Shown: piece by piece, positions 3,884 through 38,906 of the stretch
How the letters are laid out: the number at the start of each line of letters is the position of its first letter
How positions within the stretch are numbered: the first letter of the stretch is position 1
Assembly (NCBI RefSeq): GCF_002288185.1
Contig: NZ_CP016776.1
Span: 868,001-932,000, forward strand
Reading direction: 5' to 3'
Origin: Candidatus Planktophila vernalis
GTDB lineage: Bacteria > Actinomycetota > Actinomycetes > Nanopelagicales > Nanopelagicaceae
Length of the DNA stretch: 64,000 bases
Made by a program: the position numbers and the translations under genes
Notes under the pieces: model-generated
The model's database searches: none
What the model was told of the DNA's origin: nothing
What the model saw: only the letters and a program-made list of their open reading frames with translations

Positions 3884-4099
3884 ATGTCAGAACAATTGAT
3901 GCTTCAATCAGTACCTCTTAACGCCCTTGACCGTTGCGACCGCTGCGGAGCCCAGGCCTATGTTCGCGCCGTGCTTCTCAACGGTGGAGAACTCATGTTC
4001 TGTGCCCACCATGGCAAGGAATATGCCGAAAAGCTAAAGACAGTTGCTGCAAAGATTGTCGATGAGAGTCAAAAGCTCGTCGAGACTCCAGCTAACTAG
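3884..4099 (+). CDS. DUF7455-type small cysteine-containing protein
   Basis: 71 residues with CDRCGAQAYVRA and a later FCAHH: two CxxC/CxxH half-sites that could bind a metal, as in the actinobacterial DUF7455 family. The gene in this position between the principal sigma factor and parE is conserved in actinobacteria, which supports it being real and housekeeping, but its biochemical role is not known. A GGAGAG Shine-Dalgarno lies 5 nt ahead of the ATG. The 3' end overlaps the convergent CDGSH-hydratase gene by 8 nt. Confidence 0.85.
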   Translation: MSEQLMLQSVPLNALDRCDRCGAQAYVRAVLLNGGELMFCAHHGKEYAEKLKTVAAKIVDESQKLVETPAN

Positions 4100-5006
4100 C
4101 TTTTATCTCCACGTTTCCTAATCCTTTAATCTCAACACGATAGCTGTTGCCTGCAAGCATAGGAACTCCTGTTGTTGCAGATCCACTAAAGATAATTGAT
4201 CCAGCAGCCAACTTCACACCCGTTGCCGCTAATACTTTAGAAAGTTCAACTACTGCCATCCAGGGGTTGCCTTGAATTGCAGTTAACGGTGCTGATTGAG
4301 TCAACGCTCCATTAACAAATACTTCGGCCATTAACGCATCTAAATTCTCTTGATGCGCAGGCACCCACGCGCCATATGCAAAAGCTGCAGCACCAGCGTT
4401 ATCTGCAATGCAATCCTCTGCATATGCCTCAACTTCACCAAAGCGATAATCAAGGATTTCCATGCCTGCGGCAATATGGCTCACGTAATCTAGAACTTCT
4501 GATGGATGAATCTCACCATTTATCTCTTTGCTTAGCTTAAAGACAACTTCAGCTTCTGCACGTGGATAAATCAAAGATGCAGTGTGTAAAGAATCAATGC
4601 ACTGCATTGCATCGGTTAAATACCCAAATATGTTGATGTATGTCGGATCATCTTTCTTTGTTGAATCCAGCGCTCCCCCGAGCTTGACACCCACAAGTAC
4701 TTCTTCATGCTCAAGTCGGTACTTAAGTTCATTCTCGCGAATCTCTCGTGCACGAACAGGTGTGGCACCAAAAAGATTAGAAGGCTTTACTAATTCGCGG
4801 GCATTTCGAAGTTGCTGGGCAACGATTTTCACATACTCCCCATGCGATGAATCACACCACGGCTTATCTTTAGAGAGCCCACAACCACAGAGCTTGGGAT
4901 TAGTAAGGCTTTCGATGACCTTGCCATCGACATCAACTACATCAACTTCACCGCTGATCTTGATAGATCCGCTTTTGGGATTAACAAAAATCGATGGTTT
5001 GTCCAT
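4092..5006 (-). CDS. CDGSH iron-sulfur domain fused to a 2-oxopent-4-enoate hydratase-like (MhpD family) domain
   Basis: Residues 40-55 carry a complete CDGSH motif, C-x-C-x2-S-x3-P-x-C-D-x-S-H (C40, C42, C51, H55), the 3Cys-1His ligand set of a 2Fe-2S cluster. From about residue 80 to the end the protein matches the MhpD/DmpE/DmpH hydratase-decarboxylase fold: PRAEAEVVFKL supplies the ExE metal ligands and GMEILDYRF a third Glu, followed by ADNAGAAAFAYG. That family adds water to, or decarboxylates, 2-oxo-enoic acids in meta-cleavage pathways. No aromatic degradation genes are nearby. The ATG is only 3 nt past the sigma factor stop, so both are co-transcribed. The substrate and the purpose of the cluster are unknown. 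Confidence 0.82.
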   Translation of the reverse strand: MDKPSIFVNPKSGSIKISGEVDVVDVDGKVIESLTNPKLCGCGLSKDKPWCDSSHGEYVKIVAQQLRNARELVKPSNLFGATPVRAREIRENELKYRLEHEEVLVGVKLGGALDSTKKDDPTYINIFGYLTDAMQCIDSLHTASLIYPRAEAEVVFKLSKEINGEIHPSEVLDYVSHIAAGMEILDYRFGEVEAYAEDCIADNAGAAAFAYGAWVPAHQENLDALMAEVFVNGALTQSAPLTAIQGNPWMAVVELSKVLAATGVKLAAGSIIFSGSATTGVPMLAGNSYRVEIKGLGNVEIKAS

Positions 5007-5009
5007 GAT

Positions 5010-6701
5010 TTAGTCGAGGTAGTCCCGCAAAACCTGGCTGCGTGAAGGGTGACGAAGCTTGGACATTGTCTTGGATTCAATCTGGCGAATACGCTCACGT
5101 GTAACGCCATAGACCTTTCCAATTTCATCCAACGTCTTTGGTTGACCATCAGTTAAACCAAAGCGCATCGCAACCACACCAGCTTCACGCTCTGAGAGCG
5201 TATCTAGAACTGAGTGCAACTGCTCTTGCAGCAATGTGAATGACACCGCATCAGCTGGAACAACAGCTTCAGAGTCTTCAATCAAATCACCGAACTCGCT
5301 ATCGCCTTCTTCACCTAGTGGTGTGTGAAGTGAAATTGGTTCACGGCCATACTTTTGAACTTCGACAACCTTTTCAGGTGTCATATCAAGCTCTTTAGCT
5401 AACTCTTCTGGGGTCGGTTCGCGACCAAGATCTTGAAGCATCTGGCGCTGAACACGTGCCAACTTGTTAATAACTTCAACCATGTGAACAGGAATACGGA
5501 TTGTGCGGGCCTGATCAGCCATCGCACGTGTAATAGCCTGGCGAATCCACCATGTGGCATATGTTGAGAACTTATAACCCTTTGTGTAGTCGAACTTCTC
5601 AACGGCTCGAATCAAACCTAAGTTACCTTCTTGAATAAGGTCAAGGAAAAGCATTCCGCGGCCGGTGTAGCGCTTAGCAAGAGAGACAACGAGGCGAAGG
5701 TTTGCCTCTAATAAGTGATTCTTTGCGCGCTTTCCATCTTCAACAAGCCATTCAAGTTCGCGCTTTAGCTTCTTTTCAAGCTTCTTCTCATCTTTAAGCT
5801 TTGCCTCGGCAAAAAGCCCTGCTTCAACGCGTGTAGCTAGCTCTACTTCAAGCTCTGCGTTTAGCAGTGCAACGCGGCCAATCTGCTTCAGGTAATCCTT
5901 TACTGGATCTGCTGTAGCACCAGCGGTCATAACTGTCTGGGCAGGGGCGTCATCTTCTTCAGAGGCCTTTAATGTAAAGGCATTTTCTTCATTTCCAGAA
6001 GTATCTTCAGCTAAGTTAACAACGCGTGGTTGGTTGCTCTTATCTTCTTCTTCACCATCGATAATTTCGACAGCTTCCTTAATCAAAGTCTCAACATCTT
6101 CAAGCTCTACTTCTTCAAGCTCTACTTCTTCCCCATCGATTTTTACAACTGCAGCTTTGCCAGTCTTAGCATCAATCTTTGGCGCAGCAACTGGTGCCAC
6201 CTTTGGCTCGATAAGTGCGTAGTCGCTCTTTTTCAAAATACGAGATGGTGAACCAAGGCCAGCCTTGCGTAGTTTTTCAACGATTACTGGAACATCAGTT
6301 GCAAGGGCGCGGGCTTCATCCACTAAATCTTTATCGGTCTTTTTAGGAATGCGGTTAATCGATGTAACACCACGCTTTTCTAGCTCTGCTAGAACTTCAT
6401 GCTGGCGCAATACTGCATTTTTGGCATCAACAATTGCTTGAACATCTTTTGCCGTTAAATCTTTCTTTAATGCAATCTTTACAGGTGCAACCTTTTTTGC
6501 AGGGGCTGCCTTTTTAACTGGCGTCGCCTTTTTGGCCGCTACTTTCTTTGCAGGTGCACTCTTTTTTGCAGCAGCTTTCTTTACTGGCGCGCTCTTTTTG
6601 GCAGGTGCTCCCTTTTTAGCAGCGGTTTTCTTCACAGGTGCAGCTTTTTTCCTAACAGCTTTCTTTAACACCTTGTTTTTGAGCGCACTAAATACAGCCA
6701 C
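5010..6701 (-). CDS. rpoD: Principal RNA polymerase sigma factor (RpoD/HrdB type)
   Basis: 563 residues. Region 1.2 [16 protein letters not shown], region 2 [20 protein letters not shown] with [15 protein letters not shown], region 3, and region 4 ending in the helix-turn-helix [12 protein letters not shown] identify a group 1 sigma factor that directs housekeeping transcription. The first about 75 residues are almost wholly Lys/Ala/Pro repeats (PAKK, VKKA type), typical of actinobacterial HrdB proteins and probably disordered; an acidic stretch (about residues 190-225) follows. Upstream on the minus strand a TATAAT hexamer lies near 6752. The CDGSH-hydratase gene follows 3 nt downstream. Confidence 0.95.
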
Positions 6702-30246: not shown

Positions 30247-31782
30247 TTGTGGCGCTTTGAACCAAGTGCGGGGCCACAGGTGCACAAAAACCTTAAGCTT
30301 CTTGCGCAAGCATCTGGCGGTGTAGTGAGCCCACGGTCTACATTTGCACATGTGACTACCTATGCCAACCGTGCATTTGATACACCCCGTCCTGCGGAGT
30401 ATCCAGGCATTCCAGCGCCTATCTTTCGTCGCAACTGGCGCACACAACCCGAACTACCAGGACCCAATCCACTCTTATCGGATTGGTTGACTCTTACCTT
30501 TATTAGAAACACCCCACAATTTCTCTCTAAAATGCAAAAGCGCTATGGAAACACCTGTGCCTTTTACTTATCTCGCAGATTATTCATAGGAGTCTTTTCA
30601 GCAGAAGCAGTCCATCAGGTAACCGTTGCCCAGCAGCACAACTTTGTTAAAGGCGTTGGCTTTGCGCGCATGCGCAAAGTATTAGGTGAAGGCTTACTCA
30701 CTAATGAAGAGCCAATCCACTTAAATCACCGCCGCTTGATGCAGCCGCCCTTTCACCATGGAAACCTAGATTCCTACGTCGCCATCATGCACAAACTAGT
30801 CAATGAACACATCAACAAATGGGATGGCAAAAGCTCAGTCAACTTAGCTCCCGAGATGATGACAATCACTCTAGAGATAGTCAGCCAATGTTTATTTGGC
30901 CTTGAATCATCCAAATACACAGCACAGATCGCCCACTCCATGGAGATCGCAATCGATCGAATTGAGCGCACGATGCTGCCAGGCTTAGAGCGCTTTGATA
31001 AATCAGCTCTGTCCTACTTTGTTGCCTTTGAAGAAGCTGCCAATCAACTAGCAGATATTGCAGAAGAAATCATTCAAACCCGCATCGCTAGCAACACTAC
31101 TCACAGTGATGATCTACTCGGCATTTTGCTACAAATGCGCGATCACATCTCTATGGAACACATCCGTGACGAAGTTCTAACGCTCATCCTGAGTGGACAT
31201 GAAACCACTGCAAATGTTTTAACCTGGGCATTTTCCTATATGAGCAACAACCCACAGGCAGCTGCAGATCTTGCACAAGAAGCAGATCAAGCGCAGTGGA
31301 TTAAAGAGAAGAGAGTTCCAACATTTGCAGAGCTTGAAGCATCATCGACCTTTGCTACGGCAGTTCTCAATGAAACTCTGCGACTTGCCCCCCCTGTTTG
31401 GGTCTCCCCTCGTATTGCATTAAAGGATTGTGTTATCGATGGAACACAGGTTCCAGCAGGTGCCCATGTGTTAATTAGTCAGTTTGTAACACAGCGCCTA
31501 GACACATACTTCACACAACCCAACACCTGGAACCCTTATCGCTGGATGGATCCACACTTTGAAAGCTCACTTCCCCGCGGTGCTTACTTCCCATTCCTAG
31601 CAGGCAGCCGCAAATGCCTAGGAGAATCCTTTGCACTTGCTGAATCACGTCTTATTTTGTTATTAGTTGCCCATAAGTTCCACACCTCAAACACAATGCC
31701 AAAAGCACAACCCCGCACCACCTATAGGGCAAAGGGTGTTGTTCCAACGGCGATAAAAGCTAGAAGCAAAGCGTATGAGTGA
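30247..31782 (+). CDS. Cytochrome P450
   Basis: About 511 residues with LSGHETTAN in the I-helix, NETLRL (ExxR), and the heme loop FLAGSRKCLGE (FxxGxRxCxG). A heme monooxygenase resembling the CYP102/CYP4-type long P450s, substrate unknown, with no reductase partner nearby. The start is unclear: TTG at 30247 lies only one base from AAGGAG, and GTG at 30280 is an alternative. The 3' end overlaps the DUF2087 gene by 8 nt. Confidence 0.9.
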   Translation: MWRFEPSAGPQVHKNLKLLAQASGGVVSPRSTFAHVTTYANRAFDTPRPAEYPGIPAPIFRRNWRTQPELPGPNPLLSDWLTLTFIRNTPQFLSKMQKRYGNTCAFYLSRRLFIGVFSAEAVHQVTVAQQHNFVKGVGFARMRKVLGEGLLTNEEPIHLNHRRLMQPPFHHGNLDSYVAIMHKLVNEHINKWDGKSSVNLAPEMMTITLEIVSQCLFGLESSKYTAQIAHSMEIAIDRIERTMLPGLERFDKSALSYFVAFEEAANQLADIAEEIIQTRIASNTTHSDDLLGILLQMRDHISMEHIRDEVLTLILSGHETTANVLTWAFSYMSNNPQAAADLAQEADQAQWIKEKRVPTFAELEASSTFATAVLNETLRLAPPVWVSPRIALKDCVIDGTQVPAGAHVLISQFVTQRLDTYFTQPNTWNPYRWMDPHFESSLPRGAYFPFLAGSRKCLGESFALAESRLILLLVAHKFHTSNTMPKAQPRTTYRAKGVVPTAIKARSKAYE

Positions 31783-32734: not shown

Positions 32735-33997
32735 GTGGCTTATAAATCAGAAGGTTACAGAGAACCGGCTAAACCGGTTGGCAACGTTGCAGAATTGTTT
32801 GCAGGCGTTGGTGGCTTTCGGATTGGCCTAGCTCGTGCCGGATGGAAAACAGTTTTTTCAAATCAGTGGGAACCAGCCACAAAAGTTCAACATGCCTCTG
32901 ATGTTTATGTAGCGCGCTTCGGTGAAGATGGACACAGCAACGAAGATATTGGAAGTGTAGATTCTCTCCCAAGAAATATTGACTTACTTGTTGGCGGATT
33001 TCCTTGCCAGGATTACTCAGTCGCAAAGACTCTCAATAGTTCTAAGGGACTCAAAGGTAAAAAGGGTGTCCTCTGGTGGGAAATTCTGCGCCTTGTTCAG
33101 GGACAAAAACCAAAATTCATTTTCTTAGAAAACGTAGATCGCCTGCTCAAATCACCTTCTAATCAACGTGGCCGTGATTTTGCAGTAATGCTTAAGACTC
33201 TTGGCGACGAGGGTTACACAATTGAATGGCGTGTTGTGAACGCCGCTGAGTATGGATTCCCTCAACGTCGTATCCGCGTATTCATTGTTGCAACCAAAAA
33301 GAAGCGAGGGGCTAAGAAGCAGACTCCCGAGAGCATCATCGGAAAGACAGGCATCCTGGCTCGTGCTCTTCCTATTGAAAAGTTAACTTCTGAACTTCAA
33401 GAGATTGACCTCGATGATGAGGCAGATCAGATTAGTACTCGCTTTAATAAGGGTGGTGGCAAGAGTTTGTTCATGAACTCTGGCTACTACGAAGATGGCG
33501 TTGCTTACACTGTGAAATCTGAAGCAAAGCTCTCAAAGACTGCAATGGTTTTGGGTGATGTTCTACAGCCAGATTCTCAAGTACCTGATGAGTATTGGGT
33601 GGAAGAAAAGCGCCTAAAGGAATGGAAATACCTAAAGGGCGCAAAAAGCATTGAACGAACCCATAAGGGTTCCGGTACTACTTATAACTACGCTGAAGGA
33701 AAGATGGCATTCCCAGACTTACTCACTAACCCAAGCCGCACCATTCTTACCGCAGAAGGCGGAAATACTCCTTCTCGCTTTAAGCACATTATTCAAACTA
33801 AGAATGGGTACCGTCGATTAACTCCTATTGAATTAGAGCGTTTAAATGGTTTTCCGGATAACTGGACGCAAAGAGATGATCAGGAAAAAGTCGTGGCTGA
33901 CAGCAAGCGTGCCTTCTTTATGGGAAATGCCTTGGTAATTGGTTTAATTGAAAAAGTTGGTAGAGTCATTGCAGCCGAAATCGAAAAGCTAAATTAG
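32735..33997 (+). CDS. DNA (cytosine-5-)-methyltransferase
   Basis: 420 residues. Motif I ELFAGVGGFRIGL (about 20-32), motif IV GGFPCQDYSVA with catalytic Cys91, motif VI LENVDRLL, motif VIII QRRIRVFIVA, a variable recognition region of about 190 residues and motif X FMGNALVIGLIE. The GTG start at 32735 has a strong GGAGGT. It modifies cytosine C5; the recognition site is not predictable. It is flanked on both sides by nuclease-like genes on the opposite strand. Confidence 0.94.
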   Translation: MAYKSEGYREPAKPVGNVAELFAGVGGFRIGLARAGWKTVFSNQWEPATKVQHASDVYVARFGEDGHSNEDIGSVDSLPRNIDLLVGGFPCQDYSVAKTLNSSKGLKGKKGVLWWEILRLVQGQKPKFIFLENVDRLLKSPSNQRGRDFAVMLKTLGDEGYTIEWRVVNAAEYGFPQRRIRVFIVATKKKRGAKKQTPESIIGKTGILARALPIEKLTSELQEIDLDDEADQISTRFNKGGGKSLFMNSGYYEDGVAYTVKSEAKLSKTAMVLGDVLQPDSQVPDEYWVEEKRLKEWKYLKGAKSIERTHKGSGTTYNYAEGKMAFPDLLTNPSRTILTAEGGNTPSRFKHIIQTKNGYRRLTPIELERLNGFPDNWTQRDDQEKVVADSKRAFFMGNALVIGLIEKVGRVIAAEIEKLN

Positions 33998-35182: not shown

Positions 35183-36403
35183 TTAGCCGCCTATCCTCTT
35201 ATTAATTAGCCCATCCAGTTTCCAAGAAATTGGCGGCAAGCCGACCTTAGTTCTAACCTGGTCAAACTTTTCATAGAAAACAGCCTTTGAAATCCCAGTC
35301 ACAGATTCAAAGCTCTTCTCAAAGTTTTTGGTAGTTCCATAGTCGGTGAAGATATCCAGCAGTTTCTGGAAGCCGACAGAGGCAATGATGTATTCACTGG
35401 CCACTAGGCCAATGTTGTATGGGTATGTAGGGGTGTCATTTCCGCAACAGACACGGATTTCATAATCAGAAATTGAGTTCCTATTTGTTGAGGGACCAGG
35501 TGGTGAATAGGACAACATTGCAGCTCGTCCATTCCAATAACTGGCGTTCTGCGAGAGTACTCCAACTGAATAACCAACAAATTCAGCGGTGCCCTCAATA
35601 AACCAGACAGGAAATGCGCTTGTGCTACCTGCATCACCGCTTTTCATCTGCAAACGATTTGAGGATTTAGCTATATTTGTCTGTGCCAAGTGGAAATACT
35701 CGTGTGCTAGCAGTGCAGCGCCATCACTACCTGGTCTTGTTTCATCATATGAAGAGTCTCCAGTGATTACATACCCCTGCCGCATAACTCCATCTAGACA
35801 TAGTGCAACACCTGGCATATACGGATTGTTACAATTTGGTGTATTCCATCCAGTCTTTGCGAGCTGCTCAACAGTCCAATTCTCTGTTGCACCAATGATT
35901 GTCTTAGAGCCCTGTGAGAAGTAGGAGCTAAAGAGCTGAGCACTTAAATCATCAGCTTTTTTTAGGATCGAGATCCGGCTTGAGTAGCGATTCTCTTGAA
36001 TCAGCTGAGTGTGGTTTTTTGTTGCACCTGTCCTGGTTTGCACCCATGCTAAGAAGTTCTTTTGAGCTTCATCGCTGAGCATCTTGGAGTCAATGTTGGT
36101 GCTCCATGGTTCAAATCTTGTTGGGGTGGGTGTTGGTGAAGGGGTTGCTGATGCAGAAGGAGTTGGTGTGGGTGTTGCAGAAGGAGTTGGTGTCGCCACA
36201 GGCACAGGCTGTTTAACAGCAACGCCTTTGTTCCACACCAACTTCTTCCCAGATTTAATGCAGGTGTATTTGATTCCAGATGATGTACTTGTTTTGCCGA
36301 GTACTTTGCAAGCCGTACCGGGCTTAACAGCTGCGAGTGCTACCGGCTGAAGGAAGGCCAAGGTAAGAGCTGTAATCAATAAGGCAAGAAGCTTGTTGCG
36401 CAC
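35183..36403 (-). CDS. Exported gluzincin-type metalloprotease with N-terminal two-Cys module
   Basis: 406 residues. Signal peptide to about residue 25 (ALA), then a module with PGTACK, YTCIKSGKKLVW and NKGV, then a Pro/Thr/Ser-rich linker (about 70-95) and the catalytic domain: HEYFH (HExxH) near residue 240 and FIEGTAEF about 36 residues later as third zinc ligand Glu, the peptidase-MA pattern. It would act outside the membrane. The gene at 37626 is a paralogue. Confidence 0.8.
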   Translation of the reverse strand: MRNKLLALLITALTLAFLQPVALAAVKPGTACKVLGKTSTSSGIKYTCIKSGKKLVWNKGVAVKQPVPVATPTPSATPTPTPSASATPSPTPTPTRFEPWSTNIDSKMLSDEAQKNFLAWVQTRTGATKNHTQLIQENRYSSRISILKKADDLSAQLFSSYFSQGSKTIIGATENWTVEQLAKTGWNTPNCNNPYMPGVALCLDGVMRQGYVITGDSSYDETRPGSDGAALLAHEYFHLAQTNIAKSSNRLQMKSGDAGSTSAFPVWFIEGTAEFVGYSVGVLSQNASYWNGRAAMLSYSPPGPSTNRNSISDYEIRVCCGNDTPTYPYNIGLVASEYIIASVGFQKLLDIFTDYGTTKNFEKSFESVTGISKAVFYEKFDQVRTKVGLPPISWKLDGLINKRIGG

Positions 36404-36461
36404 CTATCAATTATGAAGGGGAAGAGAGCAAAAAACTACCCTCTGATACTCAGTCAGTAGG

Positions 36462-37571
36462 TCACTTCTTAACCTTGAAGCCCGTAGGACACTTTGGCTT
36501 TACCGACGTCACCTTCTTGGTGAGTTTGCCTTTTACACAGGTGATGGTGGTTTTCTTTAAAGCAGCAGCTTTGGCATCTGCTTCTTGCTTAGCTTTGAGT
36601 TCCGCAGCAGCTTTTGCTTCGGCCTCTAATTTAGCCTTGAGCTCTGCCTCAACCCTTACTCTTTCATCAGCATCTTGCTTAGCCTTAAGCTCTGCAGCAA
36701 CTCTCGCCGCCTCCTGTATTGCCTCTAACTTTTTCTCATTTGCAACAAAATCTTCAGCTTCTTTAATTAGAGCCAGGTGCTTATGAGCTGGATTAACTCC
36801 AGACATCCCACCATTTGGAGCGAAACTCCCTAACGGGGCGTTGCAATTTGTGATTCCCGCTTGTTGTCCGCCAACAGCTGCTAAGTAATATCGAACATTG
36901 CTTTTCTGAACAAAGAACCCGGCTCCAGAATCACCATCACAAACCGATCCATTCGTTGCATCATTCGGAATTCCGAAATCAAGCATTGTTTGATTTGGCT
37001 GGTGCCATAATGGGTAAGCAGCGTAGTACTTACGTAAGTCATCACCGCTAACGAGAACACTCGTCATCTTACGAGGGGCTCGGTCTCTCCACGCTTGTGT
37101 CTCGGATCGCTGAGCTACATTTTGAAAGCCATATCCCACCATTACAACAGGTGCTTTCTCTCGAATAAAAGATTCAATGTCAGCAGGTGAAGCTACTTCA
37201 ACTTTATTTTGCATAGGGATACTCTCACGTAAAATTAAGATCCCAAAATCATCTATTCTTGTGTTATCTGAGCCTAAGCGAGCTCTATATGTTGGCGGTT
37301 TAAGAATTTTATAAATGCTGTATTTCTTCTGCTCTGATGTGCTGTTAACGCCAGGAGCATTTACAAATCCAAGGTTTGACCAGTTTTCAGATCCATCAAA
37401 GTTGTGAGCTGCGGTGAAGACAAGTCGATCTGAATAGAGGAAGCCAGAGGCACCTCCATTTATTCGTACCGTATTGGGATCACCCGTTGCATCCTGCCCG
37501 TATTCAACTCCCTCAGCGCTCACAGGGGTTAAAAGAGAGATTGCAAGGATAAGTACAAGAAGCTTCTTCAC
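36462..37571 (-). CDS. Exported trypsin-like serine protease with helical C-terminal extension
   Basis: 369 residues. Signal peptide (LVLILAISLLTPVSA), then chymotrypsin-fold triad: VFTAAHNF (His), RIDDFGILIL (Asp) and CDGDSGAGFF (Ser). From about residue 270 an Ala/Glu/Lys-rich coiled coil with repeats of AELKAKQ(E/D)AD type, then a terminal TITCVKGKLTKKV..KCPTGFKVKK with a Cys pair. It lies between two metalloprotease genes in the same direction, an exported-protease cluster. Confidence 0.87.
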   Translation of the reverse strand: MKKLLVLILAISLLTPVSAEGVEYGQDATGDPNTVRINGGASGFLYSDRLVFTAAHNFDGSENWSNLGFVNAPGVNSTSEQKKYSIYKILKPPTYRARLGSDNTRIDDFGILILRESIPMQNKVEVASPADIESFIREKAPVVMVGYGFQNVAQRSETQAWRDRAPRKMTSVLVSGDDLRKYYAAYPLWHQPNQTMLDFGIPNDATNGSVCDGDSGAGFFVQKSNVRYYLAAVGGQQAGITNCNAPLGSFAPNGGMSGVNPAHKHLALIKEAEDFVANEKKLEAIQEAARVAAELKAKQDADERVRVEAELKAKLEAEAKAAAELKAKQEADAKAAALKKTTITCVKGKLTKKVTSVKPKCPTGFKVKK

Positions 37572-37625
37572 AGTTCAACTCTAAAACAATTAGTTGCTAA
37601 GGGCAATGGAAATAGTTTGATGAAG

Positions 37626-38906
37626 TTACTTCTGCTGGGCCACAATCGCATTCGCAATTATCTTCACACCATCTCGCCATGAGACGCCATAGATACTCTC
37701 AAAGGCTTGTGTGAAGCTCTTGCCACTACCTGTAACTTTGTAGAGATCCATGAATTTATCTGGTCCACCAATAGCAACCATGACCTCTGTAGCAAGAGAA
37801 CCAACGTCATAGACAGCCCATCGGTCGTATTCATTACCGTTCCATTTATCCCAACCTGTGGTGTAGTCAGGGTCAAGGAATTTCTCAATCCAGGCAGCTG
37901 TAGGTTTACTTCTGGACAAAGTATCGCTGTTGTCTCTACTTCTCTCAATTACATACTTATCAAAATCAGTGTGATAAACCGTTGCACGTTGCACCCATGT
38001 GGCGCCACCTTCGATGAGCCATCTAGGCACCCGATCCCATCCGACGTTTGCTAATAAGACCGCTTGAACGGTGTGAAAGTACTCATGGGCCTCTAATGTG
38101 CCCGATGTATGTCCAGGGTCAGTTTTGCCCCACTCACTTGCAGTCATATAAATCATTGGAGTGTTTGTGGTTCGATTTCGCAAGGCTAAACCACCCCAGC
38201 ATGGAGTAACTGGAATATTGCAAGCCTTTTTTGCTTCTCCAGCTACGTCATATCCACACACTCGTCCAGCACAGAACTCATCAATTTGTTTCTGACCCCA
38301 CTCAATATCTTTCTCTCCTGCATAGATGATGACTACCTTTTTGGGCTCTTCATAATTTGCACTCAAACGTGAGACTAAATTAAGTGCCACAAGTGGATTC
38401 GGATTGTTAATAACCACATTGGGTCCATTTGTAATCTCCATTACGCCAAGCTTGGTCGAGGAAGATTCAACCTTCTGAGCAGCCTTTTTCCATGCCCAAT
38501 AAGCAATTCCATCTGCTTGTGCAACTACATCACTAAAGCCTGTTGGCGCAGTTGGTGGTACCCATGGTTTAACAGTTGGCGTCGGAGTTGGGGTTGGAGT
38601 AGGAGTTGGCGTAGGTGTTGGTGTTGGAGAAGGAGTTGGCGTTCCACCAATCGCACCTTCAGGATCACCTATCGCCGTTGGAGTTGGTTGAGGAGTTGGT
38701 TTTTTTACGACCACGCCCTTGTCCCACACCAGCTTCTTTCCAGATTTAATGCAGGTGTAAGTTTTTTTCAGATACGTCGCTTTTTGGTTAACTGTCTTGC
38801 ACGCACTACCCGGAGTAATCTTTTGGGCAGATACAGCTGTAACAGGAATCAGTGCAAGAGAAAGGGCAATGAGTAGCCCTTTAAAGAACGTGCCCTTAAA
38901 TCCCAC
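37626..38906 (-). CDS. Exported metalloprotease, paralogue of the gene at 35183
   Basis: 426 residues. Signal peptide, then the two-Cys module (PGSACK, YTCIKSGKKLVW, DKGV), a PT-repeat linker (about 70-110), and a catalytic domain with HEYFHTVQ and WLIEGGATW as zinc ligands. Same architecture as 35183 with divergent sequence. Four extra Cys in the catalytic domain may form disulfides. Confidence 0.8.
   Translation of the reverse strand: MGFKGTFFKGLLIALSLALIPVTAVSAQKITPGSACKTVNQKATYLKKTYTCIKSGKKLVWDKGVVVKKPTPQPTPTAIGDPEGAIGGTPTPSPTPTPTPTPTPTPTPTPTVKPWVPPTAPTGFSDVVAQADGIAYWAWKKAAQKVESSSTKLGVMEITNGPNVVINNPNPLVALNLVSRLSANYEEPKKVVIIYAGEKDIEWGQKQIDEFCAGRVCGYDVAGEAKKACNIPVTPCWGGLALRNRTTNTPMIYMTASEWGKTDPGHTSGTLEAHEYFHTVQAVLLANVGWDRVPRWLIEGGATWVQRATVYHTDFDKYVIERSRDNSDTLSRSKPTAAWIEKFLDPDYTTGWDKWNGNEYDRWAVYDVGSLATEVMVAIGGPDKFMDLYKVTGSGKSFTQAFESIYGVSWRDGVKIIANAIVAQQK

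Follow-up and report, generated by a model that had tools for sequence, protein, structure and literature searches.

The window, a 64,000-nt stretch of DNA from Candidatus Planktophila vernalis, lies in a genome that forms a single 1.36-Mb contig, and the organism is a member of the freshwater acI-A actinobacteria. Its nearest named relative, IMCC19121 (complete genome CP015605), an acI-A7 freshwater actinobacterium (PMC5301498), carries a fusion 96% identical to the one described here. Three adjoining genes make up the locus:

3884..4099, (+) strand: convergent 71-aa gene, the far border of a variable slot; its last 8 nt overlap the 3′ end of the fusion
4092..5006, (-) strand: fused CDGSH-hydratase coding sequence, 304 aa, stop included, with an ATG start and an intact frame
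5010..6701, (-) strand: principal sigma factor (RpoD/HrdB type), the upstream neighbour; NF004561 at 776.5 bits against a cut-off of 582

A fusion of a CDGSH domain to an MhpD-type hydratase had been proposed by the sequence-only reading, and we confirm it, as the 304-aa frame is intact and both Pfam domains score above their cut-offs. An origin by artefact or frameshift is ruled out by the same in-frame fusion in 14 other genomes and by a dN/dS of about 0.09; the proposal would also have fallen had the fusion been absent from all close relatives, and relatives do carry it. For pairs with unsaturated dS (0.17-0.42), dN/dS is 0.085-0.093 over the whole gene, 0-0.06 over the CDGSH part and 0.09-0.12 over the hydratase part, and purifying selection acts strongly on both domains. 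Three nucleotides (5007-5009) separate the sigma gene from the start of the fusion, and a consensus scan of the interval gave no convincing promoter or terminator, so that co-transcription of the two genes is likely from their spacing. The earlier description of the fusion as co-transcribed with the sigma gene is nevertheless not borne out as put, since it derives from spacing and an insert of 2.6-6 kb separates the two genes in two fused genomes. The fused protein is composed of the following parts, all on the (-) strand:

4836..5006, (-) strand: CDGSH [2Fe-2S]-type domain, residues 1-57, in the layout of a type 4 CISD (Pfam PF09360; ligand spacing as in RsCISD)
4842..4892, (-) strand: 17-residue cluster motif L39-C40-G-C42-GLSKDKPW-C51-D-S-S-H55; S53 and the next residue, G56, are departures common to the main fused clade
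4791..4847, (-) strand: continuous helix, residues 54-72, running from the His ligand into hydratase helix 1 (AlphaFold)
4095..4835, (-) strand: MhpD-type hydratase domain, residues 58-304 (Pfam PF01557; structure match to MhpD 1sv6 and to 8ih6)
4683..4685, (-) strand: K108, the conserved active-site lysine position, invariant in fused copies, stand-alone copies at the locus and 23 other MhpD-like proteins
4668..4676, (-) strand: G111-A112-L113 in place of the (L/F/M)-T-S of all 23 other homologues (alignment)
4548..4556, (-) strand: E151-A-E153, metal-ligand pair (alignment)
4458..4460, (-) strand: E183, third metal ligand (alignment)
4443..4451, (-) strand: D186-Y187-R188 in place of DSR (alignment)

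The N-terminal domain has the CDGSH layout of beta strands followed by Cys-x-Cys...Cys-D-S-S-His, and matches zf-CDGSH (PF09360) over residues 13-55 (E 6.9e-11; 42.7 bits against a cut-off of 29.5). The predicted cluster ligands C40, C42, C51 and H55 are present in the pattern C-x-C-x8-C-x3-H, and all four are kept in every fused copy that covers them and in 41/41 unfused copies, suggesting that three cysteines and one histidine of this domain hold a [2Fe-2S] cluster. A complete CDGSH motif had been claimed, which is accurate for the four ligands and not for the wording of the motif: because it reads C-D-S-S-H, it is not a textbook CDGSH. Every position of the consensus CxCxx(S/T)xxxP-x-CDG(S/T/A)H is matched except residue 53, at which the clade of the window has exchanged G for S. 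Five further fused copies retain this glycine, which is described as universally conserved; the paired exchanges of G53 for S and of K/R56 for G, beside the predicted cluster, are confined to the main fused clade. The residue after the His ligand is found where the cluster opens to the outside, and it is K or R in >90% of type 4 CISDs (PMC3174974).

The closest described counterparts are the type 4 CISDs, typical of Actinobacteria and represented by RsCISD of Ralstonia, which have a single motif in ~60 residues with N-terminal strands preceding the cluster module, and whose ligands at 41/43/52/56 correspond to 40/42/51/55 in the window (PMC3174974). Unlike them, the window domain forms the N-terminal portion of a protein of 304 aa, its motif glycine is a serine, and the main fused clade has G where K/R follows the His. 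Precedent for joining CDGSH to another domain, including an enzyme, comes from the type 5 CISDs (CDGSH with the FMN domain of glutamate synthase) and type 7 CISDs (CDGSH with DUF1271) (PMC3174974), whereas the sole other Pfam domain here is FAA_hydrolase, neither the FMN domain nor DUF1271. This partner is unrelated to the ones described and the combination is not among the seven CISD types in the body of that paper, the supplementary 'orphan' list aside (PMC3174974). The literature that we searched yielded no paper describing a CDGSH-hydratase fusion. We regard the protein as a new CISD fusion architecture, built on a diverged MhpD-class enzyme.

The hydratase fold is predicted to be complete, including its N-terminal helix, in an AlphaFold monomer model built with 39 sequences (pLDDT 91.3 overall), and FAA_hydrolase (PF01557) matches residues 149-300 (E 1.4e-11; 44.9 bits against a cut-off of 23.9). 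Structure comparison, which is informative for the hydratase part and barely tests the CDGSH part, aligned residues 54-304 with E. coli MhpD (1sv6_A) at Z 33.8 and rmsd 1.9 Å over 246 residues, and with the 8ih6 decarboxylase at Z 34.1, the two matches covering residues 54/57-304; FAH-fold enzymes outside the MhpD class reached Z 17.7 or less. The likeness to MhpD (1sv6, 2wqt), HpcG (2eb4-6) and 4-oxalocrotonate decarboxylase (5d2f-k, 8ih6) extends to the whole fold, the N-terminal helix, the lysine and the E-x-E...E site (Z 32-34, rmsd 1.5-2.3 Å), but identity is 22-31%, and the window protein differs in its GAL, DYR and GNPW stretches, its N-terminal Fe-S-type domain and its lack of a meta-cleavage operon. 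The metal ligands had been read as intact, and E151-x-E153 and E183 are indeed present; together with K108 they are invariant across all aligned copies from the locus. Assignment to the MhpD type therefore holds for the fold and the metal ligands and has to be narrowed in other respects, because the aligned locus hydratases form a clade of their own (support 0.999) to which none of 23 other MhpD-like proteins belongs, all the locus hydratases have GAL for TS, DYR for DSR and in addition GNPW (TS and SR occur in 23/23 of the others), and the window hydratase lies far below the equivalog cut-offs.

These departures bear on whether the protein is a canonical meta-cleavage enzyme, either 2-oxopent-4-enoate hydratase or 4-oxalocrotonate decarboxylase, that has acquired an Fe-S domain by accident. 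The DmpE and DmpH models are its best family matches and a decarboxylase-hydratase complex its best structural match, as such an enzyme would lead one to expect. However, the DmpE, DmpH, HpaH and MhpD equivalog cut-offs are all missed widely (104.8 bits against 408.8 for TIGR03220, 2-oxopent-4-enoate hydratase, DmpE; 88.8 bits against 350.55 for TIGR03218, 4-oxalocrotonate decarboxylase, DmpH/XylI), the signature residues are changed, and the ORFs of the window include no meta-cleavage neighbours. That aromatic degradation genes are absent, as first stated, agrees with the search of the complete genome for 4-hydroxy-2-oxovalerate (HOA) aldolase (TIGR03217), in which the best scores were 53.7 and 18.4 bits against a cut-off of 286; this search had no clean positive control and weighs less for it, as no control genome exceeded the cut-off and the aldolase-domain search (PF07836) matched none of the controls either. 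We consider a canonical meta-cleavage enzyme very improbable, and the narrower case of a plain meta-cleavage MhpD orthologue is ruled out by the changes of TS to GAL and DSR to DYR.

A second possibility is a metabolite-repair enzyme, an oxaloacetate tautomerase of the FAHD/OAT1 kind that would protect succinate dehydrogenase and use the Fe-S cluster as a sensor. It draws on the FAH fold and the metal-assisted enol-keto chemistry common to FAH-fold enzymes, and FAHD proteins repair enol-oxaloacetate (PMC10825186). Yet by structure the fused domain is MhpD-class, at Z 34 compared with about 17 for the FAHD/oxaloacetate tautomerase group (FAHD1 itself about 16-17), and a separate FAHD-type gene exists in the window genome, where a 264-aa frame gives a strong FAA_hydrolase match (G000:C1:976986-977573), as well as in 15/15 relatives searched (a partial match only in G048). 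Among the readings weighed here we give this one the smallest chance, and replacement of FAHD by the window hydratase is ruled out by the genome's own FAHD-like gene. Because the MhpD-class machinery is kept yet its signatures are changed, the equivalog cut-offs are missed and an FAHD-like gene is present separately, the hydratase part is very likely metal-dependent MhpD-class machinery put to another substrate. The altered active-site loop (TS to GAL) makes catalysis of any known MhpD reaction doubtful.

Loss of TS and the change of DSR in all locus copies could also mean that the hydratase has given up its original catalysis and now serves chiefly as an oligomeric scaffold, on which dimers of the CDGSH domain are presented and stabilized for the transfer of electrons or clusters. 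Single CDGSH domains require dimerization (PMC3174974), and MhpD-type enzymes form large symmetric assemblies, to judge from the title of entry 2wqt. Such a scaffold would not be expected to keep the lysine and all three metal-binding glutamates invariant, nor a hydratase dN/dS of about 0.1, which is as low as enzymes are expected to show, and we regard it as unlikely.

The setting of the fusion becomes clearer from the slot bounded by the principal sigma gene on one side and on the other by the convergent 71-aa gene that precedes parE, which we inspected in 70 genomes, 66 of them from the same genus. A stand-alone CDGSH gene (~60 aa) fills it in 38/70, three of these from other genera, and the fusion in 15/70; CDGSH and hydratase stand there as separate genes in 3/70 (overlapping in G151 and G061, with one gene between them in G071), neither gene is present in 12/70, and two more contigs are cut. 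The hydratase occurs at the locus in 19/135 genomes of the genus, a twentieth match (G041) lying elsewhere. None of the 26 genomes searched with the CDGSH family had more than a single copy, which means that the fusion takes the place of the stand-alone protein. One genome with an empty slot (G063) has a stand-alone CDGSH gene on another contig, while six of the 12 searched with the CDGSH family had no copy, four of these six being at least 96% complete; the empty slots and the missing copies indicate that the CDGSH system is dispensable. Most members of the genus, and members of other genera, have the stand-alone gene in this slot. Its position next to sigma is therefore an ancestral trait of the CDGSH gene itself, and the fusion is ruled out as the cause. 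The 3-nt gap that the sequence-only reading had singled out is thus real and not special to the fusion, as it recurs with stand-alone CDGSH in close relatives (7 fused and 4 unfused genomes have this spacing). What is unusual is the fusion as a form of hydratase, as had been supposed: outside its family none was found in 396 genomes of the phylum and 297 of the class, where the relatives are hydratase-only or CDGSH-only, and viral contigs gave no fusion and one weak CDGSH-only match.

Other genes also occupy the slot. A secreted peptidase-like gene, 87% identical between the two, is found in G071 and G014 (L136:4385-5425 (-), L147:4174-5220 (-)); G014 in addition has a P450-like gene (L147:2748-4163 (+)) that by eye resembles the P450-like protein at 30247-31782 of the window, and G177 has a gene for a secreted protein of 862 aa that matches no Pfam family (L138:5307-7895 (-)). 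The convergent 71-aa gene (3884-4099 (+)) is conserved throughout the family, and allele exchange stops at its border.

This exchange is apparent when the window genome is set against G062 or G008: DNA identity is about 95% in the sigma gene, drops to about 60% in the CDGSH gene and is again about 95% in the convergent gene, and both G062 and G008 are missing the hydratase between the CDGSH and convergent genes. In a FastTree phylogeny of five genes from the flanks, genomes with the fusion are interspersed among those without it, with weak local support among close relatives. G192, a metagenome-assembled genome (MAG) of another genus (L142; G192:C32, a 4.7-kb contig), has a fusion 93% identical to that of the window and a parE only 88% identical, with synonymous sites of parE near saturation, which points to transfer between genera or to a misbinned contig. 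Judged from these comparisons, fused and stand-alone CDGSH forms behave as swappable alleles. A single vertical inheritance of the fusion is ruled out by the interleaved flank tree, by G192 and by G047, which shows the opposite pattern. The main fused clade and a clade of G048, G177, G465 and G486 have a common junction, EYVKxxAxxLRNARELVKP, and therefore probably descend from one joining event. In G047, a metagenome assembly that is 71% complete, the sigma and CDGSH DNA matches that of the sister genome G078 at an identity of about 90% or higher; next come about 740 nt of hydratase lacking in G078, and identity resumes in the convergent gene; the G047 CDGSH clusters with local stand-alone copies and its junction differs from that of the main fusions. 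By this sequence evidence the coding parts have been joined at least twice, the second joining, in G047, having come about through a new insertion or through recombination of a circulating hydratase.

G151, G061 and G071 contain a third pairing, in which a different type of CDGSH accompanies the hydratase unfused. In the G151/G061 type (L135:5143-6030 (-), L137:2750-3120 (+)) the CDGSH and hydratase genes overlap in different frames, and the hydratase is without the canonical N-terminal helix; this arrangement may be a pre-fusion intermediate or a fission product. A fused open frame in G061 is ruled out, as a stop follows the CDGSH and the hydratase starts in another frame in what is a MAG with frameshifts.

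The main rival to a functional coupling of the two domains is that the fusion is a passenger, an ordinary small-molecule enzyme expressed from the constitutively active sigma locus after insertion behind the CDGSH stop, with both parts working independently and the CDGSH keeping its old job. It takes this rank because unrelated genes also enter the slot (G071, G014 and G177), and the overlapping separate genes of G151 and G061 would already be enough for co-expression. Co-expression of this sort does not call for in-frame joining with two different junctions, for a frame retained at very low dN/dS across deep divergence or for altered cluster-proximal residues in the main fused clade, and the unrelated slot genes are not found fused; we see independent parts as possible but doubtful.

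We favor instead a two-part enzyme in which a metal-dependent 2-oxo-acid (de)hydratase is coupled to a [2Fe-2S] cluster, and whose parts were joined at least twice and circulate as alleles, at a probability somewhat short of even, about 0.45. The C-terminal part would belong to the MhpD/4-oxalocrotonate-decarboxylase class of FAH-fold enzymes and most likely act on a small 2-oxo acid, which it would hydrate, dehydrate or tautomerize through enol-keto chemistry assisted by the metal, and the N-terminal part would hold the cluster by its Cys3His ligand set. The clusters of CDGSH proteins are redox-active, and in NEET proteins the helix of the cluster domain starts at the His ligand (PMC6006223). 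In the monomer model His55 likewise caps a single helix, which here runs on into the enzyme, so that the redox state or the loss of the cluster could reach the enzyme directly; the repeated joining of the two parts suggests that the cluster controls or assists the enzyme, whose activity would then depend on redox or iron status. The starting point would have been a stand-alone CDGSH gene behind sigma, to which a hydratase was added at least twice, with fused and unfused forms now circulating as alternatives. A more specific version, in which the cluster gates the FAH-fold enzyme, switching a 2-oxo-acid (de)hydratase of new specificity by way of the His ligand and the shared helix, with the module recurring behind sigma and spreading as an allele, is put forward as a tentative proposal. 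If true, it would bring Fe-S regulation to a superfamily that is not known for such clusters, in one of the most abundant freshwater bacterial lineages. The function of most bacterial CDGSH proteins is not known, and a partner enzyme joined repeatedly is a strong lead to what the CDGSH touches. The locus would also be a case of a gene fusion kept up by allele exchange at one chromosomal slot.

Elsewhere in the window, 35183-38906 (-) holds adjoining genes for large secreted proteins. Two of them, one at 35183-36403 and the other at 37626-38906, contain HEYFH-type motifs and PTPTP linkers of low complexity, are alike in their N-terminal stretches, and resemble the 346/348-aa gene that relatives have gained in the sigma slot. 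At 32735-33997 (+) lies a gene that probably encodes a DNA cytosine methyltransferase, with no obvious restriction partner among the listed ORFs.
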